Shown: piece by piece, positions 47,878 to 64,000 of the stretch
Numbering within the stretch: the first letter of the stretch is position 1
How the letters are laid out: each line of letters begins with the position of its first letter
From: Methylocystis sp. KS32
GTDB taxonomy: Bacteria; Pseudomonadota; Alphaproteobacteria; Rhizobiales; Beijerinckiaceae
Reading direction: 5' to 3'
DNA: 64,000 nucleotides
Assembly: GCA_002862095.1 (NCBI GenBank)
Contig: PHSQ01000002.1
Coordinates: forward strand, 186,001 to 250,000
The notes under the pieces: generated by a model
What the model was told of the DNA's origin: nothing
Databases searched by the model: none
Seen by the model: only the letters and a program-made list of their open reading frames with translations
Translations under genes and position numbers: made by a program

Positions 47878-49071
47878 CTATCCGCCCAATCGCGCCAGCG
47901 AAGCTGTTTTATGATTGTAGACGTAGTCGGAAATCGTGCCGTCCTTGATCCGCTCAACGACCTCGTCGATGGCGAATAACGGAGCCAGGAACCATTCCCT
48001 TGGCGTAACAGTCCGCCCGAAACGGTCCTTGATTTCGATATCGAGCTTAGAGGCGCCAAAGACGCGGTGAATCACATTTTCGAGTCTCACGCGATCGATG
48101 TTGTAAAGTTCGTAGGTCGCGACAATCTCGACATCGGCCATGAGAAAGGTCGGGTCCAGGCGCGCGTTGGCGATGCGGCGCTCGACGCCGCCGCCGGTGA
48201 CGCCGATCTTGTGCAGCACGTCGCGATGAGCGACGACAGAGGGGTGATCCGACTTGCTTCGCAGCACATAAATGACGCCGCTCGCCTCGTCTCCTTCTTC
48301 GCTCCGTTCGCCGAATAATGGACCTGCCGACGGCTCGACGATACGGCGGCCAGCCGGGTCCTGCTGGAGCGCCTTTTGAAGCGACCGCATGAGCAAATTG
48401 CTCTCGGTCCCATTGTCGAAAATCACGCGAAGCCGGGCGTCGATGTTGCCGTGCTCGTTGGTGAAAGGCTCTTCCATCGCCGCGACATAGGCTTTCTGGC
48501 CGCCAAGGATATAGAAGCGGCCATGAGCGATTTCGGACTTGCGCTCGAACCGCCTTGTCTGTCGCAGGCCGGCGCCGATCTCTTTCTGGACCGCCTCGAA
48601 AAGCGGCCTGAAACGGTCGAAATCCACGCACTTCTGGCGATTGGCGATCTCCTCCGCCACACGCTTCTCGGCGGCGGAACGCACATGCCGAAGTTGGGTG
48701 ATGTCCGCCGGCGCGACGCCTTCCACCCCGAGCTGCGCCAAGAGCCCGGCGTCGTCGAGTTCGTCTGGATCGCTGGCGAGAGAAAGCCCCGCCCCCGCCA
48801 AAAGTCCCTGGCGATCGAGCGGTTCAACCAGGGCGAAGCAATCCTCCTGCTCGCGAATGCGATCGAGGCGCACGGCGTAAAGCCGCTCGAAAATGTCGCA
48901 CCCCTCGCCATGCTGCGGCGCGCGCCCATGCTGCTCCACGAAACGCTGAATTTCCTCGAAGCCGGCGATAATCCGTTCCTCTCGGGGCGTCCGGTTCGCG
49001 TCCTTCTTCGTCCCGGCGTCGACGCCAAGCTCTTCGAGAAGCGCGCTATCGTCATCGGTGAACTTAGACAC
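47878..49071 (-). CDS. GIY-YIG nuclease family protein, helicase-associated
   Basis: 397 aa. The C-terminal third is a GIY-YIG/T5orf172-type domain: 'GVIYVLRSKSDHPSVVAHRD', 'VLHKIGVTGGGVERRIANAR' and 'RVRLENVIHRVFGASKLDIE', giving the Tyr, the IGxT-Arg element and the metal-binding Glu. The N-terminal part is helical with acidic regions ('DDDSALLEELGVDAG', 'EEIQRFVEQHGRAPQHGEG') and probably binds DNA or the helicase. Its start overlaps the helicase stop by 8 bp, so the two are translated together. Candidate effector nuclease of the operon. Confidence 0.8.
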   Translation of the reverse strand: MSKFTDDDSALLEELGVDAGTKKDANRTPREERIIAGFEEIQRFVEQHGRAPQHGEGCDIFERLYAVRLDRIREQEDCFALVEPLDRQGLLAGAGLSLASDPDELDDAGLLAQLGVEGVAPADITQLRHVRSAAEKRVAEEIANRQKCVDFDRFRPLFEAVQKEIGAGLRQTRRFERKSEIAHGRFYILGGQKAYVAAMEEPFTNEHGNIDARLRVIFDNGTESNLLMRSLQKALQQDPAGRRIVEPSAGPLFGERSEEGDEASGVIYVLRSKSDHPSVVAHRDVLHKIGVTGGGVERRIANARLDPTFLMADVEIVATYELYNIDRVRLENVIHRVFGASKLDIEIKDRFGRTVTPREWFLAPLFAIDEVVERIKDGTISDYVYNHKTASLARLGG

Positions 49072-51169
49072 GCGCCGCCTCCGCCTTCATGCGCTGAAGA
49101 TAGGCCACGCCCTCGGCCATCCGTTTTTCCCAGACGTCGGGCGACGTGATCGAAGGCAGTCGGCCCCGCTCCTGCTTGAACTTCAAGGCTAGTTTGGCAA
49201 GTTCGCGCGCCTTATCCATGGTGAGGTTCACCCGCCTGGCCCCGATCACGGCCGCGACCTGTTTCAGGCTTTCCTCGCTCATGGTCTTGGCGAGGATGGC
49301 GTAGGCTTCGCCGAACGGGTTGATGTGGTCGATCATGTCGATGTCCATCTTGCGCATGTCGATCGCGAACTTACGAACGCCGTCGACAAAGGCGGTATTG
49401 GCGCCTGCTTCGCCGTCTCCGCCAGCGGTGGCCTCTTCCTTGGCCTTCTGGGTAAAGTTGAGGGCGGCGACGGCGTGTTGACGCACCGCCTCCCGATCCT
49501 CTTCATCCAGGTCGGGGAACTTGTCCTTGACGATCTTGCCCATGCGAAGCTGTGTCAGTTCTTCCGCTATGGTTTCGCCGCCAGCGTGCTCGCCATCGAA
49601 CAGGCCGCGAGCGATCGTCGTCTTGTCCTGCACGAAGGCCGCGATCACCTCGTTCAAGTCCTGCCGGCAGATGCGCTGCGCCTCCTCGCTCTTGGGCGCG
49701 ACGAGCCCCTTGATCTCGATCTCGAACTTGCCAGACTCCTCGTTGAAGCCGACATTGCACTTGTTCGGATCGTAGCCGCCCGCGCCATAGTCGAAGCCCG
49801 CTGTCGGCCCGCTCCGCGGATTCTTCGGCTTGAACTCGAAGCGCGGGGCGAGCACCTGCTCCATCAGCAGGCTGGCGGCGATGGCCTTCAACGTGTCGTT
49901 CACGGCCTCGGTGACGAACTCCTCGGAAGCGTCCGGCTGGGCGATCAGATTGGTGAAGCGCGCGCGGATCTTGTTCGGCGCGTCGCGGGTGACGCGTCCG
50001 ATGATTTGCACGATTTCGGTGAGGCTGGAGCGATAGCCGACCGTCAGCGCGTGTTGGCACCAGATCCAGTCGAAGCCTTCCTTCGCCATGCCAAGGGCGA
50101 TGATGATGTCCACATAGTCCCGGTTGTTCTTCTGGCTCGAATCCTTCAACGCAGCGGAGACCCGGTCGCGCTTGGCCGGATCGTCGTCGACCAGATCGGC
50201 GATCCGGAGGATACGGCCCGCTGGGGTTTTCACCAACTGGAAGCCGGTCACGGGGTCGACGCCCTGCCATTCGCCCAACTCTTCGATAATGTGCTCGACT
50301 TCCCTGATCTTGTCCCTGGTGCTCTCGCGCGAATTGACGCTCGGAATGTGGACGATGGTTTTCTCGGCCGGGTCGATGACTTTCATGATGTCGTCGGCAT
50401 AAGAGCCGGCGTAGAAGAAATAGCCGATGTCGAGCCGCTTCAGATGTTCGTAGCCATTGAGCTGCTCATAATAGGTGTAGGTGAAGGTATCGAACTTCGC
50501 CTCGTCCTCCGGAGCGAGGACGGCGTCGGCGTCGCCGCGGAAATAGGAGCCGGTCATCGCCACGATATGCACGCGGTCGCGGGCGATGAATTGGCCAAGA
50601 TGCAGCCCGAGCTTGTTGCCGGGGTTGGCGGAGACGTGGTGAAACTCGTCGACGGCGATGAGGCGGCCGTCGAAGGCTTCCACCCCGAACCTCTCCACGG
50701 CGAAGCGGAAGGTCGCATGGGTGCAGACCAGCGCCTTGTCGCCGCTTTTGAGGAAAGCGCCCAGCGCGTTGACCTTGCCGCCATTATCGTTGCCGGGGGC
50801 GTCGCACAGGTTCCATTTCGGCTCGACACGCCAGTCGGCCCAAAAGCCGCCCTGGCTCAACGGCTCGTCGTGGAAGCTCGCGCCAATGGATTTCTCCGGC
50901 ACGACGATGATCGCCTGTTTGACGCCCTGATTGGCGAGCTTGTCGAGGGCGATAAACATCAGCGCCCGGCTCTTGCCCGAGGCGGGCGGCGATTTGATCA
51001 GCAGATATTGCTCGCCCCGCTTCTCGTAGGCGCGCTCCTGCATCGACCGCATGCCGAACTCGTTGACCTTGGTCGATCTGCGGTTGCTGGCGTAGGAGAC
51101 TGAAACGGAAGGAACGGATTTCTGGTCAATAGTCATGCATTCGCCTTCGGCCCATTTGGATGTTAGCAT
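49064..51169 (-). CDS. SF2 DEAD/DEAH-type helicase of a restriction-like operon
   Basis: 701 aa from ATG 51169 (ATG 51136 is equally possible; both have AAGG seven bases upstream). Motif I 'LLIKSPPASGKSRALMFIAL', Ia region 'QAIIVVPEKSIGASF', motif II 'LIAVDEFHHVS' (DEFH), motif III 'IVAMTGSYFRGD', motifs V-VI 'VGYRSSLTEIVQIIGRVTRD'. Architecture resembles the Res helicase of type III and related systems but with no nuclease domain; the C-terminal 200 residues are helical. The GIY-YIG gene follows with overlapping codons, supplying a nuclease in trans. Confidence 0.85.
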   Translation of the reverse strand: MLTSKWAEGECMTIDQKSVPSVSVSYASNRRSTKVNEFGMRSMQERAYEKRGEQYLLIKSPPASGKSRALMFIALDKLANQGVKQAIIVVPEKSIGASFHDEPLSQGGFWADWRVEPKWNLCDAPGNDNGGKVNALGAFLKSGDKALVCTHATFRFAVERFGVEAFDGRLIAVDEFHHVSANPGNKLGLHLGQFIARDRVHIVAMTGSYFRGDADAVLAPEDEAKFDTFTYTYYEQLNGYEHLKRLDIGYFFYAGSYADDIMKVIDPAEKTIVHIPSVNSRESTRDKIREVEHIIEELGEWQGVDPVTGFQLVKTPAGRILRIADLVDDDPAKRDRVSAALKDSSQKNNRDYVDIIIALGMAKEGFDWIWCQHALTVGYRSSLTEIVQIIGRVTRDAPNKIRARFTNLIAQPDASEEFVTEAVNDTLKAIAASLLMEQVLAPRFEFKPKNPRSGPTAGFDYGAGGYDPNKCNVGFNEESGKFEIEIKGLVAPKSEEAQRICRQDLNEVIAAFVQDKTTIARGLFDGEHAGGETIAEELTQLRMGKIVKDKFPDLDEEDREAVRQHAVAALNFTQKAKEEATAGGDGEAGANTAFVDGVRKFAIDMRKMDIDMIDHINPFGEAYAILAKTMSEESLKQVAAVIGARRVNLTMDKARELAKLALKFKQERGRLPSITSPDVWEKRMAEGVAYLQRMKAEAARV

Positions 51170-51232
51170 AGCGCTACCTTCGCGCTTCGCGTCTTCAATA
51201 CACCAAAGCTGAACAGTGCGGCGACACGGCGT

Positions 51233-51506
51233 TCAGCTTTTGGTGCATACATACTTAGCAGTCTCTAGGTCGCCGTATTCGTCAATATGAGTCATAAGCG
51301 GCTCGTTTGCGACAGAAAGCTTGGTAAAAAAATATGTGAACCCACCGTATCCCCCATATGAATTCTTGGCGTTCATCTCTCCGCAAACCATCGTTAAATC
51401 TTGTCCTTGATACCGGAAGCCATACAGATTGCGAAATTGTGCCGAACTTGGATCTTTTAAATCATGGCTGGCGACCTCTTTTGCTACAGTCATCTGCTGG
51501 GCGGTA
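51233..51506 (-). pseudogene. 3' fragment of a hypothetical gene cut by the IS element
   Basis: From the IS edge the frame reads 'TAQQMTVAKEVASHDLKDPS', 'SAQFRNLYGFRYQGQDLTM', 'VCGEMNAKNSYGGYGGFTY', ending 'LETAKYVCTKS'. This resembles small secreted proteins with 'LKDPxSAxFR...VCGxVNAKNSxGGYxGF'. The in-frame codons upstream belong to the IS, and no start or signal peptide is found in the DNA on the other side of the IS (beyond 52571). AT-richer than neighbours. Original function unknown. Confidence 0.6.
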
Positions 51507-51524
51507 AGAGTCTGTCCGCGAACA

Positions 51525-52489
51525 TCATGTTGGATTGCATAGCTTTCTGAGCATGAGGCGGATTGAGGCGATGCGCAGAAATGCGAGCGCCTTTCGGTTG
51601 AGGCATTCCCAATCCTTAGGAGACCCAGCCAAATAAGTGCTTCAACTTTCCGGGACACGTTGCCAGCCTTGTAGGCCGGAAATCAGGCACCCGGCGCGTC
51701 TGAGTCCTCCCGACCTGATTCACTTATTTGGCCGCCTTGCCTTAGCCAATCTTCGACACCGACCGAGCCAGGAAAAAGTTCGTTCGACGACCCACCGCCT
51801 TGGCAAGACCTCGAAGCCTTTCGCTGTGTCAGAACGCTTGACGATTTCCGTCACGAGGCTTGGCAAAGCTTTCTTCTGCGCCTCGCAAAAGATTGGTCCC
51901 TGATATCCGCCATCGGCGAACAGCTTTTGCAGAAACGGAAATCTCCCAAACATTGTGCGCAGAACAAGAACGCCGCCGTCTCGATCCTGAATGTCGGCCG
52001 GATGAACGATCGCATGAAGCAGCAGGCCTATCGTGTCGACGAGAATATGCCGCTTCTTGCCGTTGATCTTCTTGCCCGCATCATAGCCGTGCGGATCAAT
52101 GCAGCGCCCCCTTTTTCCGCCGCTTTCACGCTCTGGCTGTCGATGACGGCGGCGGTCGGGCTGGCGTCACGCCCGGCGGCCTCGCGACACTTCACGTAAA
52201 GCGCGTGGTGGAGACGATCGAGCGTGCCGTCATAGGTCCAAAGGTCGAAATAGCCGTAAACTGTGCTCTTGGGCGGCAAATCCTTCGGGATCGCGCGCCA
52301 CTGACAGCCCGTCGAGAGAACATACATGAGTCCGTTCACGACCTGCCGCATGTCCACCCTGCGCTTGCCGCCGCCGCGCTTTGCCGGCGGGATCAAGGGG
52401 GCGATCAATGCCCACTCCGCGTCCGTGACGTCGCTGGGATAACGCAGACCGCTACGGTCGTAGCGCGCGCGATTTTCGTTCGTCCACAT
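51525..52489 (-). pseudogene. IS5-family transposase, disrupted
   Basis: Frame A from ATG 52489: 'YPSDVTDAEWALIAPLIPPA', 'VNGLMYVLSTGCQWRAIPKD' and 'AAVIDSQSVKAAEKGG' (first catalytic Asp). At the AAAAAGGGGG run near 52110 a frameshift, programmed in this family, leads to 'CIDPHGYDAGKKINGKKRH', 'FADGGYQGPIF' (second Asp) and 'WVVERTFSWLGRCRRLAK' (Glu). After LAK a 126-bp insertion brings a stop; beyond it the frame resumes as 'DWECLNRKALAFLRIASIRL' and 'MLRKLCNPT'. The last 30 residues are therefore lost, and the element is probably inactive. Confidence 0.85.
51620..51740. mobile_element. 121-bp MITE-like insertion inside the IS transposase
   Basis: Flanked by a 5-bp duplication CTTAG (51615-51619 and 51741-51745). 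Ends are inverted: GAGACCCAGCCAAATAAGTG at one side and GCAAGGCGGCCAAATAAGTG at the other, sharing 12 perfect inner bases (GCCAAATAAGTG). Removing it plus one CTTAG restores the transposase frame exactly. Confidence 0.82.
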
Positions 52490-52755
52490 CGGCGACCCCT
52501 TCGAGAATCAGGCCGCCACATCGAATCATAAAAGACTCATTCGACTCAACTTCTGCTCGGACAGACACTTAGAGTGACGCGTTGCGCCGGAACGTGGTCG
52601 GCTGTGCTAGCGCAACCGACCAATAAACTCGCCACAGGGGCAAAACGAAACAGCCTAAGCATAAATTCTCCCGTTTCTAGGATGGTGAACCAAGTTCTGG
52701 ACGTTCATCAAGAGGCGCTGCGTAGGCGCAAGTATGAACAGAGCGGGCGATAAAA

Positions 52756-53292
52756 CTAATCGGCTTTGAAGGGCAACACCCTATAGGCGGAGCTTGACGA
52801 CTGTTTTTGCTTAAGGAACCCTTCAATATCATAGAGCGAGAGCATATCTGTAGCGATTGTCACCTCAATGCTGTGCCGCAAGTCGGAGATGCACTGATAA
52901 TTCTGTTTACCAAACTCTATGATGCTCATTCCTTCCTTGTAGCCAAACATTATGTCCTGTAGTTCACGTAGCTTTTCAAAAAGAGTTTCGCTAATCAATA
53001 GCTGATGCGGATATATGTCGGCGTATGATTTGAGATAATCGGTTAGTTTCCCTTCCTCGTCGGAAAACAGGAAATGATATGGCTTATTGTCTTCTTCGAG
53101 AATCGCGGTTTTTAATTTGACAACGAGTGCATTCACTTGTTTATACGCTTTGAGTCGGCGTTTAATGATATCTTTGTAATAGTCGTTCTTGAAGTCCCGT
53201 TGCTTAGCGTAGTGGCCTACAACCGCATTGATTGTTGAGGCTAAAAACGTCGCGATCACGGTCGATGTCAGAATGATGTTAGTCGTATCCAT
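52756..53292 (-). CDS. Small membrane-anchored hypothetical protein of the defence operon
   Basis: 178 aa from ATG 53292, with GGAG eight bases upstream; ATG 53328 is an alternative, 11 bp past the methyltransferase gene. One N-terminal membrane helix, 'NIILTSTVIATFLASTINAV', is followed by a helical, charged cytoplasmic part ('KNDYYKDIIKRRLKAYKQ', 'LTDYLKSYADIYPHQLL'). No known domain. Base composition is AT-rich compared with both flanks, indicating separate acquisition. Similar small N-terminally anchored proteins are common in defence islands; role unknown. Confidence 0.65.
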   Translation of the reverse strand: MDTTNIILTSTVIATFLASTINAVVGHYAKQRDFKNDYYKDIIKRRLKAYKQVNALVVKLKTAILEEDNKPYHFLFSDEEGKLTDYLKSYADIYPHQLLISETLFEKLRELQDIMFGYKEGMSIIEFGKQNYQCISDLRHSIEVTIATDMLSLYDIEGFLKQKQSSSSAYRVLPFKAD

Positions 53293-53339
53293 CAGATTTG
53301 CTCCAAAATGTCTATTGAACTCGCTCATGCCGCCACACT

Positions 53340-56111
53340 CTATTCTTTTTTTGCCGTTGCGCGACGCGAAGCGGTCATCTTCGTATAGAGTTCAAACAGC
53401 TTCTCCAACCGCTCCGTGTCATTGCGGAAGCGGCGACCGATATAGATGCGCTCCAGCACCTCGTCGTTGCGCTCGTGCGCCTCGCGCAGATCGGCGGGCA
53501 TGTGGTCTGGGTCATAAAGATCGGCGATGGTTTTCGGAAAATGCGCCTCGCGCGTGAGTAGAATGTCCTCGGCGCAGCGGGTCAGATCGGTTTTGTTCTT
53601 TTCGGTCAATGTCGGGACGGGAAAGGTGTTCCAGCCGAGAGTGTTGGAATAAGAGAAATCGGTGCGCATACGGACGCAAACGGTTCCAATCCACACCCAA
53701 TGGAGGCGCGAGGCGATCAGCGCCATGTTCCAGAGGGGAGCGTCGTATAGTGCGAAGTTGCGATCGCCGACTATCGTTCCTCCCGTCACAAGCCCGACAG
53801 GCAGATACTCACGGTTCTCTGAACTGACTCGGGGGACAACGATGGATCGTTCACCCCCAGACTGGCGAACTTCACCAAATCTGTAGGGCGTGGCGGCGAG
53901 CGCCTTGGTGGTGGCGCGATCCGATTTGGCTCGCTGCGCCCTTACCGCCTCGAAACGATCACGAAGCCAAGCGTTATCGTTGGCCGACCGGTAATCCTCG
54001 TTAGCAACCCAAATGCACTTGCGCTCTATTCCACGGACGAACTCTTGCGAACCGACAAATGGGCGAATGAAGGCCAGTGACACCGCGTGATCGTTCACCG
54101 CTGCCGCTGCTTCATTCGTATCGAGCAACAGATACCCGCCGTCATTGGGCATGTTGCCGAAGTTCATCTCGTAAAGGTCATTGAGAGGACGCGAAAGCTG
54201 TCCGACGATGACATTCGGACCTGGCACCAAGTATGCGTTGATGTTCTCAACTGCCTTAACGGTCGTGCCCCTGCCGTCCACATCCGAGAAAAGCAGCCTC
54301 GTCCGGCCTGCATGATTTGATAGGCCGACAATCACAACGGTGACGCCAGCGTTGTAGCTCGCAAGGTTGGCCCATTTGAAGGACGTATGGGCGAAGGCGA
54401 CTTCATGCCCACTCTTGAAGATCAACGACCAGAGGGTTTCGACCTGCCGGCCTTGGCAAATGGAATTGGTGGACACAAAAGCAGCGACCGTAGGCGTCAC
54501 CGCTCCGTAGTCTGCCGCCTTCATAAACCAGCCAGCCACATAGTCGAGCGACTTCCAGTTCGTCGTGCGCGCGTCAAAAATGTTTTTCAGGTCTGACTTC
54601 TGTTCGTCGGTCTGCCATTGGCTGCCGCGATAAGGCGGATTCCCGCAAATATACGTCTCGCCGCCTTCATTCTCAAAATCGATCTGCGCCTGATTGAGCG
54701 GCGTGTGGAACAGGTCGTCGGCGTGGTGCTTCACGCCCGTTCCCGTTGGCGGGCAGATGCTCAACCAATCGAGCCGCAGCGCGTTGCCGCAGGTGATCCA
54801 ATTTTCGGTGGCGAGCGGCAGGAAATCCTGGAGCGCCTCCTTCTGGCCGCGATAGAGCGCGTCGCACTGAAATTCGGCGATGATCAGGGCGAGGCGCGCG
54901 ATCTCGGCCGGGAAGCTTCGCAGCTCGATGCCCCTGAAATTGGTCAGCGGAATGTCCGTGCGCCGATCCGGCTCGCCGCGTCGCCGGTTGATCTCGGACT
55001 CGATGGCCCGCATCTCCTTGTAGGCGATGACAAGGAAATTGCCGCTGCCGCAGGCCGGATCGAATACGCGGATCTTCGACATGCGCTTGCGCAGGTTCAG
55101 CAACATCCGGCTGTTGTCGCCAGCTTCCTCAAGCCGCGCCCTCAGATCGTCGAGGAACAGCGGATTGAGCACCTTCATGATGTTCGGCACGCTGGTGTAG
55201 TGCATGCCGAGCGCGCCGCGCTCATTATCGTCCGCCACCGCCTGGATCATCGAACCGAAAATGTCGGGGTTGATCTTCGTCCAGTCGAGGCCGCCGATCT
55301 GAAAAAAGTAGGAACGCGCGATCCTGCTGAAGCGCGGCACGGCGAGACTGCCAGAGAACAACCCGCCGTTCACATAGGGTAAAGATAATTTATCGATCCA
55401 GTGAGGAATGTTCGCTTCCGCGCGATGTTCGCGCTTCGTGTTCATGGTGCGAAACAGTTCGCCGATCACTTCATGGGTGTTGGACGAGTCCCGCGCGGTC
55501 ATCTGCTCGATCGCCGCCGTGAACAGCCCGGGCTTGCTGAAAATATCCGTGTCTTCGGCGAAGAAGCAGAAGATCAGCCGCGCCATGAAATGGTCCATGT
55601 CATGGCGGCGCGCGGCCGCGCCCCAGTCCGGATTGTCTTTCAATAGCTCCATATAGAGCTTGTTCAGGCGGTTAGTCGCGCGGATATCGAAAGAGTTCTC
55701 ACGGATTTGCGCGACATTGGCGATGCCGGCCAAGGGCAGGAAAAAACCTAACCGGTTAGGAAAGTCGGCATAGGCGCTGGCGACGGTCTCGCCGCTCGCC
55801 AGATCCTCGGCCTCGAACGTCGCGCCATCGGTCGCCAGAACGAATTTCGCCTTGGCCCTGGCCGTCGCCGGGCTCGCCCTCAACGCGGCGAAGGTCTTCG
55901 AAACGTCGCCGGGCTCGCAAACGGCGATGTGGATGTTGTTGGTTTGAAGGACGCCGCCCAGATCGGATTTGTTCGTCTCGCCCTTGCGCAGGCGTATGAG
56001 GGTCGTTTCCTTGTTCCCAAAGGCTTGCAGGAAGGCGTAAGGAAACTCCTCCGGGTCGAACGGCCGCCCGGCGAGAGCGGATATGGCGTCGTCTATCTCT
56101 GATGCGTTCAT
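53340..56111 (-). CDS. MmeI-type class I SAM-dependent DNA methyltransferase without obvious nuclease motif
   Basis: 923 aa from ATG 56111 ('MNASEIDDAISALAG'). Order: N-terminal MmeI_N-like region, helical spacer ('MARLIFCFFAEDTDIFS', 'PYVNGGLFSGSL'), methyltransferase core with motif I 'FDPACGSGNFLVIAYKEM' near residue 347 and motif IV 'YICGNPPYRGSQW' near 490 (NPPY, adenine-N6 class), then a target-recognition and C-terminal region ending at 'NDTERLEKLFELYTKM'. I see no D...(D/E)xK nuclease motif in the N-terminal 200 residues, which MmeI-type IIL enzymes have. First gene of the minus-strand operon with the membrane protein, the helicase and the GIY-YIG protein. Confidence 0.88.
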   Translation of the reverse strand: MNASEIDDAISALAGRPFDPEEFPYAFLQAFGNKETTLIRLRKGETNKSDLGGVLQTNNIHIAVCEPGDVSKTFAALRASPATARAKAKFVLATDGATFEAEDLASGETVASAYADFPNRLGFFLPLAGIANVAQIRENSFDIRATNRLNKLYMELLKDNPDWGAAARRHDMDHFMARLIFCFFAEDTDIFSKPGLFTAAIEQMTARDSSNTHEVIGELFRTMNTKREHRAEANIPHWIDKLSLPYVNGGLFSGSLAVPRFSRIARSYFFQIGGLDWTKINPDIFGSMIQAVADDNERGALGMHYTSVPNIMKVLNPLFLDDLRARLEEAGDNSRMLLNLRKRMSKIRVFDPACGSGNFLVIAYKEMRAIESEINRRRGEPDRRTDIPLTNFRGIELRSFPAEIARLALIIAEFQCDALYRGQKEALQDFLPLATENWITCGNALRLDWLSICPPTGTGVKHHADDLFHTPLNQAQIDFENEGGETYICGNPPYRGSQWQTDEQKSDLKNIFDARTTNWKSLDYVAGWFMKAADYGAVTPTVAAFVSTNSICQGRQVETLWSLIFKSGHEVAFAHTSFKWANLASYNAGVTVVIVGLSNHAGRTRLLFSDVDGRGTTVKAVENINAYLVPGPNVIVGQLSRPLNDLYEMNFGNMPNDGGYLLLDTNEAAAAVNDHAVSLAFIRPFVGSQEFVRGIERKCIWVANEDYRSANDNAWLRDRFEAVRAQRAKSDRATTKALAATPYRFGEVRQSGGERSIVVPRVSSENREYLPVGLVTGGTIVGDRNFALYDAPLWNMALIASRLHWVWIGTVCVRMRTDFSYSNTLGWNTFPVPTLTEKNKTDLTRCAEDILLTREAHFPKTIADLYDPDHMPADLREAHERNDEVLERIYIGRRFRNDTERLEKLFELYTKMTASRRATAKKE

Positions 56112-56409
56112 GCTCGACCGCGTTTTGGGTGATGAACTTAATTCTGAACTTTTCGATATGTTTTCGTGAAATTCGCCGATCGGTCGGGCGCTTCCCGCAT
56201 AGCTATAACTCATTGATCGCTAATTCGTCGAGTTCATCTGGACAGATGCTCGACGGCGGCATGTCCCGGCCTCGCCGAGGCTATGCCGCCGTCCTGGCGC
56301 TTTCATGCCAAGCGCAGACGATCCGTCCTCTGTTTCGGCGCGGCGCGTCATCCGTTATTGGGCGGTGCGGGCGACAATCATATCCAGCCGATAGGCTGAA
56401 GGCGTCTTC
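56112..56409. other. Promoter region of the methyltransferase operon
   Basis: No gene seen. The first 60 bp upstream of the methyltransferase are AT-rich (AACTTAATTCTGAACTTTT). Chance ORFs only. Confidence 0.35.
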
Positions 56410-56793
56410 CTACCGCCATCCGCCATTCCAGTGATGATGATGATGCCAGCGGCGGTAACGCCAGCCGCCGCCCCATCCGCCCCATCCGCCATTCCAGTGA
56501 TGATGATGATGATGATGCCAACGGCGGTAAGGATAATAATAATAGGGGTAATAATAGCCGCCATAAGGCGCCCAGTAATATTGCGCGGTCTGGATGCGCG
56601 GCTCGAGAGCAGACTTTTCCCCCGCCCTGGCTTCACCCAAAAGGGCGGCGGCATTGGGGATGGGTTGCAGAAGCTCCGTATAGGAGCGGGGCGTCATCAA
56701 TTCGTCGAGCGTGTGCGCATGGGCCGCCGGCGCCACCGCCGAAAGCGGCAAAGCCGAGATTGCGCCGACCAGTCCAGCGGTTTTTTTGCTCAT
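56410..56793 (-). CDS. Secreted His/Trp/Tyr-rich protein
   Basis: 127 aa from ATG 56793, with GGGAG about eight bases upstream. Signal peptide 'GLVGAISALPLSAVAPAAHA'; conserved-looking mid part 'LDELMTPRSYTELLQPIPNA'; then 'YGGYYYPYYYYPYRRW' and two His tracts of seven and five residues in WHH...WNGGWGGWGG repeats, ending 'WNGGWR'. The His tracts are encoded by ATG-like (CAT) microsatellites. Histidine clusters suggest metal binding at the cell surface; no homologue of known function. Confidence 0.75.
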   Translation of the reverse strand: MSKKTAGLVGAISALPLSAVAPAAHAHTLDELMTPRSYTELLQPIPNAAALLGEARAGEKSALEPRIQTAQYYWAPYGGYYYPYYYYPYRRWHHHHHHHWNGGWGGWGGGWRYRRWHHHHHWNGGWR

Positions 56794-57247
56794 TGTTTTC
56801 TCCCTGTGCAAAATCGCCGTCTCGAAATCTGCAAAATCATTATGGCGATTTGCGGAAAACGAGCGGGGTGCGTCCCGCCATTTAGGGAACATGCCTTGGC
56901 GAGTCGTTCTCCTACAGAACTGAAGATGCGGTGCGCAATTTAGCACCCGGTCATTTCCGCGAGAATTTTGGTTATGTCCGGGTCAGCAGCGCTTCACAAT
57001 TGAAAAGACAAAAAATCAGACGCCGGCGCGCGGCCTTTCCCGGCAAAACAGTGGTTCGAATCTGCTTGGCGCGCCAATTAAATCAAGCAATCATCGCCCC
57101 CGGCTTTCGAATGCGATGCGCATCAGGCCAATGGCGGCGGCGAGCAAGGGCGGAAGACAAAGAGCGAGGGCGACGATGGCGGTTCCAGGCGAAGCGGGTC
57201 AAATGCTCTCGGTAGCATCGAACAGATATAAGGCAAATATGGGCGTG
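56794..57247. other. Intergenic region at the edge of the mobilisation island
   Basis: No gene supported. A T-arm-like GGTTCGAATC occurs at about 57053-57062 but no complete tRNA can be folded. Could include the left junction of the element; nothing proves it. Confidence 0.35.
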
Positions 57248-57679
57248 TCACCGTAATTCTTCTCCTTCCTCATCCTCACTCACAGGAAGTGGGGATTTCG
57301 CAAACCGATGCTCTAGAATCCGCAACCATCTCTCCAATGGAGCAGCGATCAATGGAACATCCCAATGTTGAGCAAGAACCATTTGGATCATTATGCTGGC
57401 GATAAGAACAGTAAAAAACACATACCACGGCGCTAATATCCCAACTCCGACAAGAGAAGCTATATTGCCACAAAACACGAAAAAAAACCTCTCGCGTTTA
57501 ATCTTTGTCTTTAATGACAAATTTTCTTGTTCTAGGTCGTATACGCGCTTTGCTAAAATATTATTGTCACTATCAGGCGACGTCAATGCTACTCCACTCG
57601 CCTCTAAACTCCCTTCTGTTGGCGTATTCCTCTGCAATATCTCTGTCTGTGATGGCGATGTTTCGCTGTCCTTGCTCAT
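57248..57679 (-). CDS. Two-helix membrane protein, candidate toxin partner of the Panacea protein
   Basis: 143 aa from ATG 57679 ('MSKDSETSPSQTEILQ'); ATG 57700 is possible. A Ser/Thr-rich N-terminus and a short coiled coil ('LAKRVYDLEQENLSLKTKIK') precede two membrane helices, 'FFFVFCGNIASLVGVGILA' and 'WYVFFTVLIASIMIQMVLA', and an acidic C-terminus ending 'SEDEEGEELR'. AT-rich. Its first 107 bp overlap the 3' end of the DUF4065 gene in another frame. In PanAT systems the gene next to the Panacea antitoxin is the toxin and several are small membrane proteins; the toxin role here is inference from position. Confidence 0.62.
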   Translation of the reverse strand: MSKDSETSPSQTEILQRNTPTEGSLEASGVALTSPDSDNNILAKRVYDLEQENLSLKTKIKRERFFFVFCGNIASLVGVGILAPWYVFFTVLIASIMIQMVLAQHWDVPLIAAPLERWLRILEHRFAKSPLPVSEDEEGEELR

Positions 57680-58049
57680 ATTTCTTCGCCCACGCGCCAT
57701 GAGACCAATGAGTTAGGTTCACTAGCTTCCCAGGCTTAACATTGAGATACCTATCACAAATTGCGTCAAGCACACGTTTCCTTTCGCTACCCGCTCTTAG
57801 CCTAAGAGCATCAAAGAAAACGTCAGAAACAGAGTCCGCGCCAAACATTTTTACTTTGTGGTACAAATTTGGAGATACGGGGCCGTAATCCCATGCCTCA
57901 AACGAAGTGTCCGCTAACTTGTCCCCATCATTTAAGCCAGCATACTCCACTTGGGCCAGATATAATAACTTCTGCAAAGGAAGGTTAGAGATGCTCCATC
58001 CGCTCCTTTCGCAGATATACTTTGCTGCGGTATCAAGCCTAATGGCCAT
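57573..58049 (-). CDS. Panacea-domain (DUF4065) protein, candidate antitoxin
   Basis: 158 aa from ATG 58049, whose start overlaps the upstream gene's stop as TGATG. The domain is clear: 'DTAAKYICERSGWSISNLPL', 'QKLLYLAQVEYAGL', 'FEAWDYGPVSPNLYHKVKMF' and 'HWSHGAWAKKY'. The Panacea domain is a promiscuous antitoxin domain that neutralises unrelated neighbouring toxins; the family also includes the proteolysis adaptor SocA. AT-rich, unlike the GC-rich genes on either side. Confidence 0.85.
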   Translation of the reverse strand: MAIRLDTAAKYICERSGWSISNLPLQKLLYLAQVEYAGLNDGDKLADTSFEAWDYGPVSPNLYHKVKMFGADSVSDVFFDALRLRAGSERKRVLDAICDRYLNVKPGKLVNLTHWSHGAWAKKYEQGQRNIAITDRDIAEEYANRREFRGEWSSIDVA

Positions 58050-58267
58050 CAGCCCCAACGGCGCGCCGTCGCCTTTTTGGCGATCGCGGACCGTTCCTCC
58101 TTGGTGAGCGCGTCTACGCGCGCTTGCGCCCCAGCTTTCCCAGACCGGACCTTGCCAGATGGTTCTTTCAGTTCATCGGTCAGTTCCCCGGTCGCGATCT
58201 TCGCAACCATGACGGCCCAGCCGATCGCATCGGCTGGGCGCTTCTGACCCTGTGGGACTTTCGGCAT
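58049..58267 (-). CDS. Small basic protein (RPADxIG family), first gene of the Panacea operon
   Basis: 72 aa from ATG 58267 ('MPKVPQGQKRPADAIGWAVM'), ending 'EERSAIAKKATARRWG'. Small alphaproteobacterial proteins with KRPADVIGNAV...IATGE and a lysine/arginine-rich 'xxLTxExRxxIAKKAAxARW' tail are common and sometimes annotated as RNA-binding; none that I know has a tested function. TGATG overlap with the Panacea gene indicates one operon. It may be a DNA-binding regulator of the module. Confidence 0.7.
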   Translation of the reverse strand: MPKVPQGQKRPADAIGWAVMVAKIATGELTDELKEPSGKVRSGKAGAQARVDALTKEERSAIAKKATARRWG

Positions 58268-58639
58268 TGGCTCCCCTCGATATAAAGCGTTCTTTATGCG
58301 CTTTTCGCCAGCATAGCACATGATTCGACCACTGGCGAGATTCGCAGAAAGTCAATATGGCGATGGCGATCTTCAAGGGGAACACCCTGAGAAATTTAAT
58401 TGCCATCAAACTGAGACACTACTCGGATTCGCGGAACCTTGCTTTATGGCGCCAGCGTGCCGAACAACCTTCTCCCAGGTCCGTTTCGGCGTCGGGCGGG
58501 TATGTAATCGTCTGACTGCCGGTCGGCGACGGAGACTCCGCTCGGCCCATCAGCTCGCCAACAAAAGCTTTTCCGCCCGCTCCAGATCGACCGAAACAAG
58601 CTACGAGATACCGCGCTCGGCCTGAAATTACGGTGACAC

Positions 58640-58770
58640 GCCCGTCTTTCCCCTTTAAATAGCCGATACAACTCATAATCGCCCGCCTCGAAAAACACGG
58701 GTGCGCGACGATTGCCACGCCGGGCGACATGATGCGGAAGGCCGGAGACAACATTTCGCGGGGTCCTCAA
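58640..58770 (-). pseudogene. Remnant of a REP-associated tyrosine transposase (RAYT)
   Basis: A minus-strand frame reads 'RTPRNVVSGLPHHVARRGNR' then 'RAPVFFEAGDYELY', matching the TnpA_REP N-terminus (RxxxxGxPHHxxxRGNRR...FFxxxDYxxYL) with its HxH-like catalytic HH. After about 34 residues similarity ends and the frame scatters. The rest of 58268-58766 shows no gene. Confidence 0.6.
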
Positions 58771-59234
58771 CGGATACGCCACCCCCATTGCTTTCCGCTG
58801 GCCTGGTCCCGAAAAGGGTAGCAAAAATCGCCTTCAATGGCCCATCCTGGATTCGAGCAGTAAGCCAGGGAGTGGATCGACCCCGCGCGCGCCAACCCGT
58901 AGGTCGCCAGGCCATCGTGAGAGACCCACCACCATCCAGTCAACGCGAGCGCGCCCAGGATCGAGGCCGCCGCCACCCAGCGCCCCCCCGACCGTCTGAC
59001 GCCGGCTTCGACGATCTTGACCGCCGCCGCCGCGAAGTGTTCGTCGATCTCCGCGACGCGGCGCGATACGCTTCCGTGAATGGCGTCCATCGCGACGACT
59101 GCGGCAAACATCGGATCGCGCGGCGGCACGTCGATCGCCGCCGCCAGAGAGAGGGCGCGTGCGATTTCCGCGTCCGTCGCGTCTCGACCCGTCGCCGCGC
59201 GGATTATCTCGCGCACGTCCACGTCCGCCGTCAT
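58767..59234 (-). CDS. StbC-like membrane protein of the plasmid stability operon
   Basis: 155 aa. A cytoplasmic helical N-terminus ('VREIIRAATGRDATDAEIAR') and one central membrane helix 'WVAAASILGALALTGWWWV' are followed by a short region with two Cys ending 'QWGWRIR'. The sequence has no known domain. I name it StbC-like only from position: third gene after a DNA-binding and a ParA-like ATPase gene, facing a mobC/relaxase operon, as in the IncW plasmid R388. The start overlaps the ATPase stop by 4 bp. Confidence 0.6.
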   Translation of the reverse strand: MTADVDVREIIRAATGRDATDAEIARALSLAAAIDVPPRDPMFAAVVAMDAIHGSVSRRVAEIDEHFAAAAVKIVEAGVRRSGGRWVAAASILGALALTGWWWVSHDGLATYGLARAGSIHSLAYCSNPGWAIEGDFCYPFRDQASGKQWGWRIR

Positions 59235-59926
59235 CGGATTACCCCCGCCTGAACTAGCGCTGCGGCGACGCCCTCTCTGTAACGCCGGAGCGCAGACCTT
59301 TCCGCAATAGTGAAGCCGCCGTCCGCCGCCGCCGCCACGTCGAGGCGTTTGCGTTCGTTAGTCAAGCGGTCGGCGATTGCGTCGTTCAGTTCTGGCCATA
59401 CGACGACAGCCGCACAGTCGTTTTTCGTGCGGCTGCTGTTGAACAGGCTGAATTTCTCCGGCGGACCGAAGTAGGAGTTCACGATCGCGACGACCGGCGA
59501 ACCTTGCGCCCCGTCGATTTGTTGCCTGAGTAACTCGACCGAGTCGCGTTGCCGGTTGATCGGGAAGAGCACGACGATTTCGCGCGCCGTGGCGGCGGCG
59601 ACATCCGCTAAAATTGACCAGTGCGCCAGTAGCGAAGTCAGACAACGCGCAGGCGTGTTTATGACGACAGTCGAGCTATTGGCGGCGCACTCAATCGCAT
59701 TGGCGGCGCGAACGAAGCCCGACTCGTCGTCTATGCTGGCGACTTCGATCGAAACGCGATCCTCTCCGCCAAGCGTTTTCGCCACGTCCGGATTATTGTC
59801 GTCGCTCTCTATCAGCGTGATCGAATCGCCCCGCGAAAGCAGAGCGTCGACGACGCCAAGAGAGACGACCGACTTGCCGACGCCGCCTTTAGCCCCAGAC
59901 ACAACTATAATCTTACCGGCGCTCAT
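59231..59926 (-). CDS. ParA/StbB-like P-loop ATPase
   Basis: 231 aa. Deviant Walker A near the N-terminus, 'IIVVSGAKGGVGKSVVSLGV' (KGGVGKS), then 'ITLIESDDNNPDVAKTLGG' and 'TVVINTPA' as switch regions; the C-terminal 'RYREGVAAALVQAGV' is helical. MinD/ParA superfamily, StbB-like by neighbours; such ATPases position or stabilise plasmids and balance segregation against conjugation. 15 bp after the StbA-like gene. Confidence 0.82.
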   Translation of the reverse strand: MSAGKIIVVSGAKGGVGKSVVSLGVVDALLSRGDSITLIESDDNNPDVAKTLGGEDRVSIEVASIDDESGFVRAANAIECAANSSTVVINTPARCLTSLLAHWSILADVAAATAREIVVLFPINRQRDSVELLRQQIDGAQGSPVVAIVNSYFGPPEKFSLFNSSRTKNDCAAVVVWPELNDAIADRLTNERKRLDVAAAADGGFTIAERSALRRYREGVAAALVQAGVIR

Positions 59927-59941
59927 ATGCCTACTCCTTCC

Positions 59942-60397
59942 TTAGAGGTCATCCGTGTCCTGTTTGATTTCAAACGCGCCCTTGCCTGACGTCATTTCCC
60001 GCCCCTGTTCATGCGTCCCGACAGTCACGACAGGTGAGTTAATCGCTCGGACATTCTCTATTTCCACAACTTCTTCGTGCGGCTTGTCACCACGCCTACG
60101 TTGTGTTCCCGTGCGTCGAGCAGCGCCCTTTCTCGTCACCCCCGCAACCTCGGCAATGGTCTTGGGTTGCGCCGTGAAAAGGCCGCCTTCAGACAGCGCA
60201 TCGGCGATTTGCGATGCGGTGTAACCCTGCCGCAGCATTTCCGCCATCTCGTCCTTCAACGCCGCGAGCACATCCATTTTTCCGCCGCGTGCGCCCTCTC
60301 CGGGTCGTTTTTCACGCTTCAGCCGCTCTAATGATTCGCGCCCAATCCGTGCCGATTCTTCGATGTCGTATGTCGCCTTTATCGTCGTCTTCGCCAT
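59942..60397 (-). CDS. StbA-like DNA-binding protein of the stability operon
   Basis: 151 aa. 'ALKDEMAEMLRQGYTASQI' and 'ADALSEGGLFTAQPKTIAEV' form a helix-turn-helix of the kind in StbA and related plasmid proteins (xGYTxxQIAxxLxExG). Basic middle region, acidic C-terminus. First gene of the three, divergent from mobC. In R388, StbA binds ordered direct repeats between stb and oriT; the GGTTGCC repeats at 60537-60603 occupy the equivalent place. Confidence 0.65.
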   Translation of the reverse strand: MAKTTIKATYDIEESARIGRESLERLKREKRPGEGARGGKMDVLAALKDEMAEMLRQGYTASQIADALSEGGLFTAQPKTIAEVAGVTRKGAARRTGTQRRRGDKPHEEVVEIENVRAINSPVVTVGTHEQGREMTSGKGAFEIKQDTDDL

Positions 60398-60603: not shown

Positions 60604-60640
60604 GACCGTGGTGTAGTCTAGCTCATCGTTGGCCGGAAGT

Positions 60641-60816: not shown

Positions 60817-60882
60817 GGCAACCCATTTACGGTGACGGCAACCAATGAAAGACAAGGCAACCACTCATACAAAGAGGCAACC
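60817..60882 (-). repeat. Four GGCAACC repeats overlapping the mobC start
   Basis: Reverse complement of the left set: 60817-60823, 60837-60843, 60856-60862 and 60876-60882, spaced 20, 19 and 20 bp. The last two lie within mobC codons. Confidence 0.78.
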
Positions 60883-61207
60883 GCCCCGCCCGCCTCGCCG
60901 ACCAAAGAAGCACTCAGCGACTCTTTCCTTGAGGCTCCCGCCGAGCGAAAAGGCGCGGATCGAGGAGGACGCGCAGGCGGGGGGCATCAGTGTGTCGGAG
61001 TGCGTTCGCAGGAGATACTTCGGCGCCAAGATCGCCGCGCGCGCCGACCTCAAGACGGTCGCGCAGTTGCGGCAGATCGGAGGTTTGCTGAAAAATCTGG
61101 AAGCAAGGTCTGGCGCCCGATCACAAGAGTATCTACGCGCGCTCGGCGCCCTGGCTCGCGCTATCGACCGCATCGCCGCCGGGGGCGACAATGAGGATAA
61201 AGCATGA
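60845..61207 (+). CDS. mobC: MobC-like relaxosome accessory protein
   Basis: 120 aa. Basic N-terminus, then a ribbon-helix-helix: 'ATLSLRLPPSEKARIEEDAQ' and 'AGGISVSECVRRRYFG', followed by a helical oligomerisation part ('AQLRQIGGLLKNLEARSG', 'ALGALARAIDRIAAGGD'), the usual MobC/TraJ layout. It binds oriT and helps the relaxase. The stop overlaps the relaxase ATG by 4 bp (ATGA). GGCAACC repeats lie across its start, suggesting autoregulation or overlap with oriT. Confidence 0.85.
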   Translation: MKDKATTHTKRQPPRPPRRPKKHSATLSLRLPPSEKARIEEDAQAGGISVSECVRRRYFGAKIAARADLKTVAQLRQIGGLLKNLEARSGARSQEYLRALGALARAIDRIAAGGDNEDKA

Positions 61208-64000
61208 TCGTCAAACGTATTCCGCGCCGCCCGCCCGACGGGCGAGGCAAGACCGCCGCCGTCGGCGCGCTTTGCACATATATCCTCTCCGGGCGCCCCA
61301 ACGACCCGGCGGACAAACTCATTTGCGGCGGCGCCGTCAACACAATATCCAAGTCTGAAAGCGGGTGCATCGCGGAAATGCAGGCGTTGGCGCAGGCGTG
61401 CGCCAGATCGCCAAACCCTGTAGTCCACTATGTCATCTCATGGCGCGCCGAAGAACGTCCGTCTAAAGAGCAGGTCGCGCAAGCGGTGAAGATGTTCACC
61501 GACGATATGGGCTACGGTAACAATGCCGTAATCTGGGGGGCGCATGGAAATACTGACAACATCCACGTTCATGTTGCGATCAACCGTTTCGACGACACGC
61601 TCGGTCGCGCCGTAAGACCCTATCGCGGGCTCGACCATCACATGGCGCTGAGAGCCATCGCGCGCATTGAAACTGAGCAGGGATGGCAGCCGGAGCGCAA
61701 CGCGCGTTATGCAGTCGAAGACGGTCGCGTGGTTCGCACGAAAAGGCGCACGGAAACGGTCGATGATGATGCACCGCCGCCAATAAGCTACCGCGCACGG
61801 GGTTCGGAGATCCGCAGCGGCAAGAAATCGTCTCAACGTATCGCGCAAGAAAGTGGCGTCGGGCAGACAATCGCGCGCGCTTCGTCATGGGATGAAGTCC
61901 ACATGATGTTGGCCTATTCTCACGACGCAAGTTACGAGCCATGCGGCGGCGGCGCAGTTATTCGGATGGGCGGGCGCACCGTCAAGGCGTCGAGCGTGGC
62001 GCGCGAAGCGTCGTTTCACCATCTCGAAAAGAGGCTCGGGCCGTTTGAGCCAGCGCCAGCGCCGCTCGCACCGGTCATAGAAGAGGCTGCGCGGCGACCG
62101 CGCGCGGCGGCTCCGGTCGATGACGAGGCAGCCAGATATATCGAGGAACGCGAGGCTTACAACGCAAAAAAACGGGCGGCGCGTGGCGAACTTGACGAAC
62201 GCGTCGCCAAGCGAGAGGCGGAGCTAAAATTGGCTCAGGACGCGGAGCGCGCGGAAATCGCCGGGCGGTCGTGGAAAGGCAAAGGATCGGCCCTGAATGC
62301 ATTACGTGCGGTTCTGGCCGACGCGCACAAGAGGCAGTCCGCCGAGTTAAAGGCCGAGATCTCAACGGAACGGAAGACGTTCCGATCGGAATGGCCGGAC
62401 TGGCCCAATTTTGATGAATGGAATCGGGCGCTGGCGTCGTCCGACAGCGGCGGCGCGCAATCTCGAAAGGATGAGGGTATCGCCATGGCCTCAGGAACAA
62501 CGCCCACAGAAAAGCAGGAGCAAACCGCACCCGTCAATACTCGCTATCTTATGCCAATTGTGGACCTTTTGAAGTTGCACGCAAAAGATCGCCTTGTATT
62601 GATCGGAAAAATCCGGGACGCGATGAAGAAAGGCGACGAGAACGCAACGCGCGACGCGGCGGCGCAGGCTCTCGACAAACTTCAAGAATTGCACGGACGG
62701 CAGATCGCGTCGGCTGGCGAGCGCGAACGAGCAGAGATTGAACTGGCCTACAAGGAGCGCCGAGAGCGCGAACTGAACGGCGGAGGATGGACTGGACGCG
62801 GGGCCGAACGAAATGCGCTCGCTCACACAATCAAACAGGAATATGAGACGGCGCGAACTGATTCATTGAGGCGGCAGGGCGCATCTGCGACCGAGCGCGG
62901 CGCCGCCTTCAATGAAATTCGCCGCGAATTTGGGTTTCCGTCCCCGTTCGCAACGACTCCCGCCCCATCCCCGGAACCGGCCAAACCGAAGCGTCCCAGT
63001 ATATCTTCGTCCGAATTTGAACGTATCAAACAGACTTCCCCCGAGCACTGGTTACAAAACGCGCGCGGATATGTAATCACTCGCAAACAGCCCCATAAAT
63101 TCTTCGCAAAAACGGGTAATGATGAAATATATCGCTGCGAACGTAAAGCAAATGGCGACTGGATGACTTTCACCAAATCCGGCGAGTGTGTAGGCAATAA
63201 CGTCACTCTCGCGAAATACGAGGCTGGATTACATGATTTGCTAGACGTAGCGGCGGCGTTTGGCGTCTACCCATCCGGTTATATTTCGCCTTCGCCGGGC
63301 CGGTCTCCGCCGCCAGCATCGCGGCCCGCGCCGGAGCCGGAGACGCCCGCGCCGCAGCCGCCGTTCGTTCCGCCTGTCGCCGCGACACCATCTCAGCGCG
63401 AAGCGGGCAGGCAATATCTCATTGAAAAAAGAGGGATTCCAGTCGAGATTGTCGAATTCGCAGAGCAGTGTGGATTCCTTTCTTATACGACCCATCAAGT
63501 CGCGTTCTGCGGCTTCGATGCCGATGGCAATATGCGGTCCGCGCAGCTTCGCCGGTTTGATGACTCCACGGTTCTAGAAAAAGGCGTAACCAGGGGGTCC
63601 GATCTTGGATTCCCCGCGTTGTTTGTTGGCGAGGACATTTCGCGTGTCGTCATTGCGGAGTCTGGGATATCCGCCTTATCTGTCCTGGCTATCGAGAGGG
63701 AAAATGGCCTCCGATTGCCGACCGTGATCTCGACGGGCGGGGTCGGCTCCCGATCGTGGACGAACAACGCGGAATCTCCGGCGCGAGCTGCGATTCTTGG
63801 TGTGCAAGCTGTCTTCATCGCGGGCGAAAATGAGAGCAGCGAAGCCAAGCAGCGTGAAAAGGACGGCGCGCGACTGGAAATGGCGCACAGAATTGCTGCG
63901 GCGACTGGTCGGGATCCTTTGATTCTGTATCCGCCCACGTTCGGAAGCGACGCCAACGACTTGCTGCTCGATAGCAAGATAGACCCCATCGACGACTGGC
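61204..64000 (+). CDS. MOBP-type relaxase fused to a DUF3991/Toprim primase-like region (3' end outside window)
   Basis: At least 932 codons, open from ATG 61204 to the window edge. The relaxase domain (about 1-240) has a candidate catalytic Tyr in 'GALCTYILSGRP', 'VVHYVISWRAEERPS' and the HxH metal triad region 'WGAHGNTDNIHVHVAINRFD'. The middle is charged and coiled ('EEREAYNAKKRAARGELDER', repeated 'GRSWKGKGSALNALRAVLA' / 'GGWTGRGAERNALAHTIKQE'). The C-terminal part reads 'AGRQYLIEKRGIPVEIVEFA', 'VAFCGFDADGNMRSAQLRRF', 'RVVIAESGISALSVLAIE' and 'STGGVGSRSWTNN', which fits DUF3991 plus a Toprim domain (E in the AES motif). Such fusions nick oriT and may aid priming of the transferred strand. 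Confidence 0.85.
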   Translation, partial: MIVKRIPRRPPDGRGKTAAVGALCTYILSGRPNDPADKLICGGAVNTISKSESGCIAEMQALAQACARSPNPVVHYVISWRAEERPSKEQVAQAVKMFTDDMGYGNNAVIWGAHGNTDNIHVHVAINRFDDTLGRAVRPYRGLDHHMALRAIARIETEQGWQPERNARYAVEDGRVVRTKRRTETVDDDAPPPISYRARGSEIRSGKKSSQRIAQESGVGQTIARASSWDEVHMMLAYSHDASYEPCGGGAVIRMGGRTVKASSVAREASFHHLEKRLGPFEPAPAPLAPVIEEAARRPRAAAPVDDEAARYIEEREAYNAKKRAARGELDERVAKREAELKLAQDAERAEIAGRSWKGKGSALNALRAVLADAHKRQSAELKAEISTERKTFRSEWPDWPNFDEWNRALASSDSGGAQSRKDEGIAMASGTTPTEKQEQTAPVNTRYLMPIVDLLKLHAKDRLVLIGKIRDAMKKGDENATRDAAAQALDKLQELHGRQIASAGERERAEIELAYKERRERELNGGGWTGRGAERNALAHTIKQEYETARTDSLRRQGASATERGAAFNEIRREFGFPSPFATTPAPSPEPAKPKRPSISSSEFERIKQTSPEHWLQNARGYVITRKQPHKFFAKTGNDEIYRCERKANGDWMTFTKSGECVGNNVTLAKYEAGLHDLLDVAAAFGVYPSGYISPSPGRSPPPASRPAPEPETPAPQPPFVPPVAATPSQREAGRQYLIEKRGIPVEIVEFAEQCGFLSYTTHQVAFCGFDADGNMRSAQLRRFDDSTVLEKGVTRGSDLGFPALFVGEDISRVVIAESGISALSVLAIERENGLRLPTVISTGGVGSRSWTNNAESPARAAILGVQAVFIAGENESSEAKQREKDGARLEMAHRIAAATGRDPLILYPPTFGSDANDLLLDSKIDPIDDW

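Follow-up and report, generated by a model that had tools for sequence, protein, structure and literature searches.

The DNA studied here is a stretch of 64,000 nucleotides from Methylocystis sp. KS32 (contig PHSQ01000002.1, positions 186,001 to 250,000; hereafter the window), from an assembly of 3.36 Mb in 7 contigs. On its minus strand lies an operon that is almost certainly a member of the DnmA(YeeA)-YeeB-YeeC kind. The three proteins probably constitute a restriction-modification-like system in which the three tasks are carried by separate proteins, restriction being the part that we infer, and a type I-like mechanism of restriction is the one we somewhat favor. The architecture is already known, and this locus adds little novelty by itself. 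What is new here, beyond the published work that was found, is the exchange of the target-recognition domain (TRD) of the methyltransferase, the selection acting on yeeB and yeeC, and a slot for cargo genes between methyltransferase and helicase. The core genes are:

53340..56111, minus strand: predicted DnmA/YeeA-type, MmeI-like N6-methyladenine (m6A) DNA methyltransferase, 923 amino acids from the conserved start, with, in this order, an MmeI_N domain without nuclease motif, a spacer, an NPPY catalytic domain, a TRD and a C-terminal domain
49064..51169, minus strand: predicted YeeB-type superfamily 2 (SF2) helicase/translocase, 701 amino acids (Pfam DEAD 5.4e-6)
47878..49071, minus strand: YeeC-type GIY-YIG/T5orf172 protein, 397 amino acids (Pfam MUG113 1.7e-12, T5orf172 4.4e-11)

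All three copies are full length. An earlier note, made from the sequence of the window, had described four minus-strand genes of one direction, these three and a small membrane protein gene, and all of them were located; its view that modification, translocation and cleavage sit on separate polypeptides agrees with the domain predictions, and the 8-bp overlap that it gave for the GIY-YIG and helicase genes is that of the coordinates above. The open reading frame (ORF) of the methyltransferase is open to 56213 (53340-56213, 957 amino acids), and the start at 56111 fits the start seen in relatives. The protein contains the NPPY motif, has a match to each of the five MmeI models of Pfam, among them that of the N-terminal domain, and gives 2e-280 with the PADLOC type IIG model. 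For the helicase, the ResIII match (21.3 bits) is just below the cut-off of 22.5 bits, the Helicase_C match is below its cut-off as well, and no nuclease domain was found by the Pfam scan. In the YeeC-type protein the GIY-YIG/T5orf172 domain is C-terminal, and a small beta-barrel-like region occupies residues ~172-247 of the N-terminal part.

This is the content of the DnmA-YeeB-YeeC cluster: an MmeI-like methyltransferase whose MmeI_N domain has no endonuclease motif, then an SF2 helicase and a T5orf172/GIY-YIG gene, all in one direction. According to the accessible text of two papers (Nye et al. 2020, PMC7261158; a 2023 paper in mBio, PMC9973331), DnmA of Bacillus subtilis is the m6A methyltransferase for GACGAG and an MmeI homologue (38% identity) without the endonuclease motif, and its neighbors are YeeB, an SF2 helicase, and YeeC, a T5orf172 protein, in a conserved order. 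Methylation in this kind of cluster is m6A at a non-palindromic site; of this, the window methyltransferase has the NPPY motif. The suggestion that the window might hold an uncharacterised DNA-modification system thus does not stand, as the cluster is already in print. B. subtilis was among the control genomes and matches the MmeI_Mtase family, and a Bacillaceae homologue (Niallia, L160) shows 33%, 44% and 31% identity with the window proteins.

The gene arrangement recurs in nearly all relatives examined, which is more than chance would give. A helicase search of genome contigs gave 171 relatives; the 80 best of them were retained (helicase identity 71-83%), so that this sample is one of close relatives. 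The methyltransferase was found in 76 of these 80 and the GIY-YIG gene in 79, and at all outright misses (methyltransferase in L070, L072, L075 and L077; GIY-YIG gene in L070) the helicase lies at most 1.9 kb from a contig end. Five methyltransferases were partial (L036, L048, L065, L067, L076), each at the start of its sequence stretch; four GIY-YIG genes were partial, those of L064 and L097 being cut by the end of the stretch. A second sample covered 297 genomes of the same order, that of strain KS32 included, with matches to the helicase in 31, to the GIY-YIG protein in 31 and to the methyltransferase in 37. Thirty genomes have a near-complete helicase, adjoined by a methyltransferase in 29 and by a GIY-YIG gene in 29 (coordinates read by hand), and the two exceptions (G176, G279) are at most 1.4 kb from a contig end. 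The earlier note had allowed that the methyltransferase might never stand beside the helicase/GIY-YIG pair elsewhere; on these counts it nearly always does. One genome (G156) holds two complete sets and a third helicase, partial and alone. A remnant in G101 (L150, 8058-9501) carries a deletion that fuses methyltransferase residues 34-88 to helicase residues 659-699 in one ORF, with an intact GIY-YIG gene behind it; G067 has a GIY-YIG piece only and G220 the methyltransferase N-terminus only. In six genomes (G082, G104, G118, G131, G140, G251) the sole match is a distant methyltransferase (blastp identity 30-35%), near which no helicase or GIY-YIG match was found in the 10.9-19 kb available for each, the L141 and L144 stretches starting less than 400 bp from the gene.

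Among 72,556 plasmid records, 264 contain a helicase relative, with a coverage of at least 80% in 134. Annotated plasmid loci of Acetobacter, Niallia, Escherichia coli, Pediococcus and Vibrio have the order methyltransferase - helicase - GIY-YIG with a methyltransferase-helicase gap below 50 bp, an order that the plasmid loci of Bacillota share with those of E. coli, Vibrio and Acetobacter. For a 7.7-kb plasmid of Pediococcus (L162, 1-7677), the PLSDB gene table lists the three system genes only. Plasmids of Acinetobacter baumannii gave partial yeeB-like matches (residues 22-193; plasmid rows H92-H102), and the accessible text of another paper names pieces of yeeA, yeeB and yeeC in transposons adjoining a carbapenemase gene (PMC9258068).

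The methyltransferase N-terminus was compared in an alignment of 106 rows, at least 6 of the 100 non-stand-alone rows being genes fetched twice. The D-x9-ExK signature is present in all five distinct full-length stand-alone homologues (L139, L140, L141, L143, L144; L130 is the same gene as L139) and in none of the 100 other rows, window included, which bears out the description of a 923-residue methyltransferase without a visible PD-(D/E)xK motif. In a profile alignment, the MmeI segment carrying D and ExK falls on the same place of the window methyltransferase. In the AlphaFold2 model (923 amino acids; mean predicted local distance difference test, pLDDT, 85.4; predicted template-modelling score, pTM, 0.77), residues 54-94 form strand, strand, helix, strand, which we take to be the order of the PD-(D/E)xK core; the solved MmeI chain (PDB 5hr4) aligns with the model only from its residue 159 on, the N-terminal domain lying outside the comparison. 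A nuclease core in this N-terminus had been named as a finding that would speak against the proposed division of labor: the core-like order is there, in the model and in the profile alignment, and the catalytic residues are missing. Judging from these alignments, the MmeI_N nuclease domain of the methyltransferase has lost its catalytic residues.

The partner proteins appear intact. The helicase motifs PPASGKS, DEFHH, TGSYFRG, GFDW and QIIGR.TRDA, which have established roles in such enzymes, are kept in at least 97% of 106 aligned rows, and the window has all of them. The GIY-YIG alignment (33 rows) keeps Y268, K288, G290, R299, E331 and H335, again all present in the window; the domain is of the GIY-YIG group with its conserved Tyr, Lys/Gly, Arg and Glu, residues with catalytic roles in these nucleases. 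Both alignments take in near-full-length ORFs only and leave decayed copies aside. The ratio of non-synonymous to synonymous substitutions (dN/dS) was computed by the Nei-Gojobori method with our own script for 12 pairs of relatives chosen by hand; it ranges from 0.021 to 0.114 in the helicase, from 0.047 to 0.176 in the GIY-YIG gene and from 0.073 to 0.295 in the methyltransferase. Against L021 and L022, the window helicase gave 0.133 and 0.173, with GIY-YIG synonymous changes near saturation. Such ratios indicate purifying selection on the helicase and the nuclease in the pairs examined.

Sequence identity was compared over 73 loci, window included, in which all three proteins are near full length. 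The mean pairwise identity is 0.44 for the TRD, 0.67 for MmeI_N, 0.67 for the catalytic domain, 0.68 for the spacer and 0.78 for the C-terminal domain of the methyltransferase. The helicase stands at 0.75, and the GIY-YIG protein at 0.70 in its GIY-YIG domain and at 0.57 in its N-terminal part. Ninety of the 100 pairs with helicase identity above 90% have a TRD identity below 70% (median 0.48), these pairs being non-independent as many come from a few related groups. For example, the DNA of L034 and L051 is 99-100% identical in the first 1.2 kb and through most of the slot and the helicase gene, and 51-53% identical in the TRD; outside the TRD their operons are 87-100% identical. These comparisons indicate that TRDs are exchanged between otherwise similar operons, with motor and nuclease staying much alike, as would be expected if specificity comes from the methyltransferase.

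Also, the junction between methyltransferase and helicase varies in length. Of the 94 loci where it could be measured, from match end to match end, 33 have a gap of 250 bp or less and 61 a longer one, and 58 of these 61 long gaps have a listed same-strand ORF of at least 70 amino acids, some perhaps being chance ORFs. In 96 of 97 loci, no more than 85 bp separate the helicase and GIY-YIG genes; the exception is L086, with 579 bp as measured on its best match. The genes in the slot belong to many families without relation to one another, those named being SLFN_AlbA_2, RhuM (PADLOC PDC-S05), PDC-S11, PDDEXK_4, BrnT, CcdA/CcdB, ParE, Fic, YhcG/DUF1016 and HEPN, so that the cargo includes toxin-antitoxin, Fic, Schlafen and nuclease genes; 7 of 10 representative slot proteins lack a Pfam match at 0.01, and much of the cargo is thus unnamed. 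In 46 of 99 pairs with helicase identity above 90%, slot genes are present with no family in common. A hypothetical gene lies between methyltransferase and helicase in Methylosinus trichosporium. This diversity suggests that the junction is a variable slot for exchangeable extra genes. Defense genes embedded in type I systems have been reported, namely DarTG2 between hsdS and hsdR (accessible text of PMC12255303) and PrrC (accessible text of PMC12707154), and the slot is therefore a known idea in another system; for DnmA-YeeB-YeeC, no report of a slot was found in a literature search limited to open-licence papers.

Some slots hold copies of the 5' end of yeeB. In L052, L053 and L054, a copy of ~38 codons stands ahead of a Schlafen-like cargo gene, and a degenerate copy is found in L034, L047, L051, L055, L058 and L062; together with a short match in L067, such copies occur in 10 of 61 gaps. 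They look as if cargo had entered by recombination into the yeeB start.

In the window itself, the slot contains:

52756..53328, minus strand: 190-amino-acid protein with one N-terminal hydrophobic segment, a probable cargo gene
52573..52662, minus strand: 5' piece of a broken small gene, with a lipoprotein-like signal start and a lipobox-like LLVGC (three-frame reading)
~51507..52572, minus strand: IS5-family insertion sequence (IS), NCBIfam transpos_IS5_3, with a transposase ORF at 52028-52489
51233..51506, minus strand: 3' piece of the gene broken by the IS (listed ORF 51233-51658)

The 190-residue protein, whose 19-residue Kyte-Doolittle maximum is 1.81 from residue 18, matched no family above cut-off in Pfam, PADLOC or NCBIfam. 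At a cut-off of 1e-3, blastp found no relative of it in the slots of the other loci, and tblastn found none in the plasmid collection. It had been counted as part of the operon; it is not constant and, with no relatives found in other slots or plasmids, is best taken as variable cargo, which it probably is. The ORF 51233-51658, absent from the earlier gene list, starts inside the IS and is therefore the tail of the broken gene; the 141-amino-acid ORF has no Pfam family above cut-off. The two pieces of this gene were read separately, and the lipoprotein-like start is deduced from the 5' piece alone. From its position, the IS has hit a second slot gene, between the 190-residue protein gene and the helicase, and spared the three core genes. 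Seven further full-length copies with 99.9-100% identity are present in the genome. Among the eight copies compared, that of the window alone has an extra 120 bp at ~51620-51739 with imperfect 30-nt inverted ends, possibly a small nested, non-autonomous element.

We propose that the MmeI-like methyltransferase would read a short site through its TRD and methylate adenine, a presumed activity in line with its sequence and fold. At an unmodified site, it would recruit or license the YeeB motor, which would translocate along the DNA, and the GIY-YIG domain of YeeC would cut it. Since site recognition would be shared, the methyltransferase would be the specificity subunit for both marking and restriction, like HsdM/HsdS of type I systems. 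The 190-residue protein and the IS-broken gene would be exchangeable cargo between the modification and restriction genes.

A different account would make the locus a relic, in which an orphan methyltransferase keeps only methylation, for gene regulation, and the helicase and nuclease are inactive. This was proposed for B. subtilis, where, in the accessible text, no phenotype was found in plasmid transformation or with three phages, the motif is not depleted in phages, and the authors speak of a non-functional relic (PMC7261158, PMC9973331). The window operon has itself received an IS, and this IS and the broken gene between methyltransferase and helicase may lower the expression of the downstream pair. 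Some copies have decayed (L076, L083, L086, L150): the GIY-YIG gene is truncated, with the nuclease domain lost, in L076 (57 residues, 4027-4197) and L083 (~105 residues, 5856-6185), where its N-terminal part remains behind a full helicase and the contig continues beyond, and the matches are broken up in all three genes of L086. These points weigh against a working restriction-modification system, and so do three others: the N-terminal part of the GIY-YIG protein is also variable, the TRD being the most but not the sole variable region; the model of the GIY-YIG protein has a low pTM (0.40) and no Foldseek match below E 1e-3; and no cleavage or ATPase assay of DnmA-YeeB-YeeC was found in the literature, as far as the accessible texts go. 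Nevertheless, yeeB and yeeC are open, with their motifs, in most relatives, and the strong purifying selection seen in the tested pairs speaks against a family-wide relic. Selection on a functioning restriction system would favor exchange of the TRD, the window itself has all three genes at full length, and a Vibrio study cited in the accessible part of PMC9973331 found that deletion of the dnmA or yeeB homologue of V. crassostreae increases sensitivity to some phages. We therefore regard a relic as unlikely.

Less likely still is a BREX-like exclusion, in which the methyltransferase would recognize unmethylated DNA, replication would be blocked and the motor would be the effector, with no double-strand cleavage: in its scan of 10 proteins PADLOC matched neither PglZ nor BrxC nor any other partner of BREX, and the GIY-YIG gene, with its key residues, is almost always present. 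The five MmeI Pfam domains and the type IIG score could point to a type IIL enzyme that cuts by itself next to unrelated neighbors, but D-x9-ExK is missing in all 100 non-stand-alone rows and the neighbors are near-constant, and we give this reading hardly any credence.

The published view of B. subtilis, in its accessible form, is that restriction is dead and the methyltransferase has survived; the family comparison points the opposite way. In most relatives motor and nuclease are conserved and the recognition domain is swapped, as would be expected if restriction is guided by what the methyltransferase recognizes, and natural pairs of operons with their main difference in the TRD make cutting and site choice directly testable. 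The cargo slot is also a source of candidate defense genes. We put forward tentatively, and with more doubt than confidence, that the junction is a defense-gene hotspot whose cargo provides back-up effectors firing on inhibition of restriction (as PrrC), that the 190-residue protein is a phage-defense effector, that TRD and cargo turn over independently, and that the whole forms a working 'split' class.

On its left the operon has rlmN, and on its right it adjoins a mobilization region with SocA/Panacea-type, ParA-like, NikA-like and relaxase genes (57573-63999). By its gene content, this region is an integrated mobilizable element or plasmid-derived. Its mobilization genes are context, outside the system:

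60845..63999, plus strand: NikA-like (1.1e-16) and relaxase (3.8e-21) mobilization genes, running off the window

Between the operon and this region, the ORF 56410-56946 encodes a protein without a Pfam match, which begins like a secreted one and ends in a tail where His, Tyr, Trp and Gly are very abundant.

Among known systems, type IIL, type III and DISARM had been set apart from this operon, and rightly so, as the nuclease or the partners that define each were not found among the proteins examined. In MmeI (type IIL, PDB 5hr4), D-x9-ExK is part of the methyltransferase chain itself; the window protein has the methyltransferase, TRD and spacer domains of MmeI without this PD-(D/E)xK active site (0/100 rows, window included), and motor and nuclease genes stand behind it. 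Type III systems have Mod and Res, with the nuclease on Res; here ResIII is below cut-off, and no Mod or Res is among the PADLOC rows shown. DISARM comprises the DrmA helicase, DrmB and DrmC beside a methyltransferase; the scan of 10 proteins gave no DrmA, DrmB or DrmC, and its sole DISARM matches were those between the methyltransferase and DrmMI (best 2.6e-24). BREX has PglX with PglZ and BrxC; the methyltransferase matches PglX weakly, and neither partner was found in the same scan. Type I systems (HsdM-HsdS-HsdR) also have separate modification and motor proteins and an exchangeable recognition domain. In the window, however, recognition and methylation are on one MmeI-like chain without HsdS, and the nuclease is a separate GIY-YIG protein; no HsdS model, and no model of HsdR with its motor and PD-(D/E)xK nuclease, was matched in the PADLOC scan of the 10 region proteins. 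ARMADA type II and YprA-linked systems have a PglX-like methyltransferase called YeeA-related and several helicases (accessible text of PMC12458937); their helicases differ, and the term GIY-YIG was not found in that text. With the DnmA(YeeA)-YeeB-YeeC cluster of B. subtilis and its V. crassostreae homologues, as far as the accessible texts describe them, the window shares both content and order, methyltransferase - SF2 helicase - T5orf172/GIY-YIG. YeeB and YeeC of B. subtilis are said to miss short C-terminal stretches (accessible text of PMC9973331), whereas the window proteins align almost end to end with their proteobacterial relatives, and the window differs further by the IS and the extra genes between methyltransferase and helicase.

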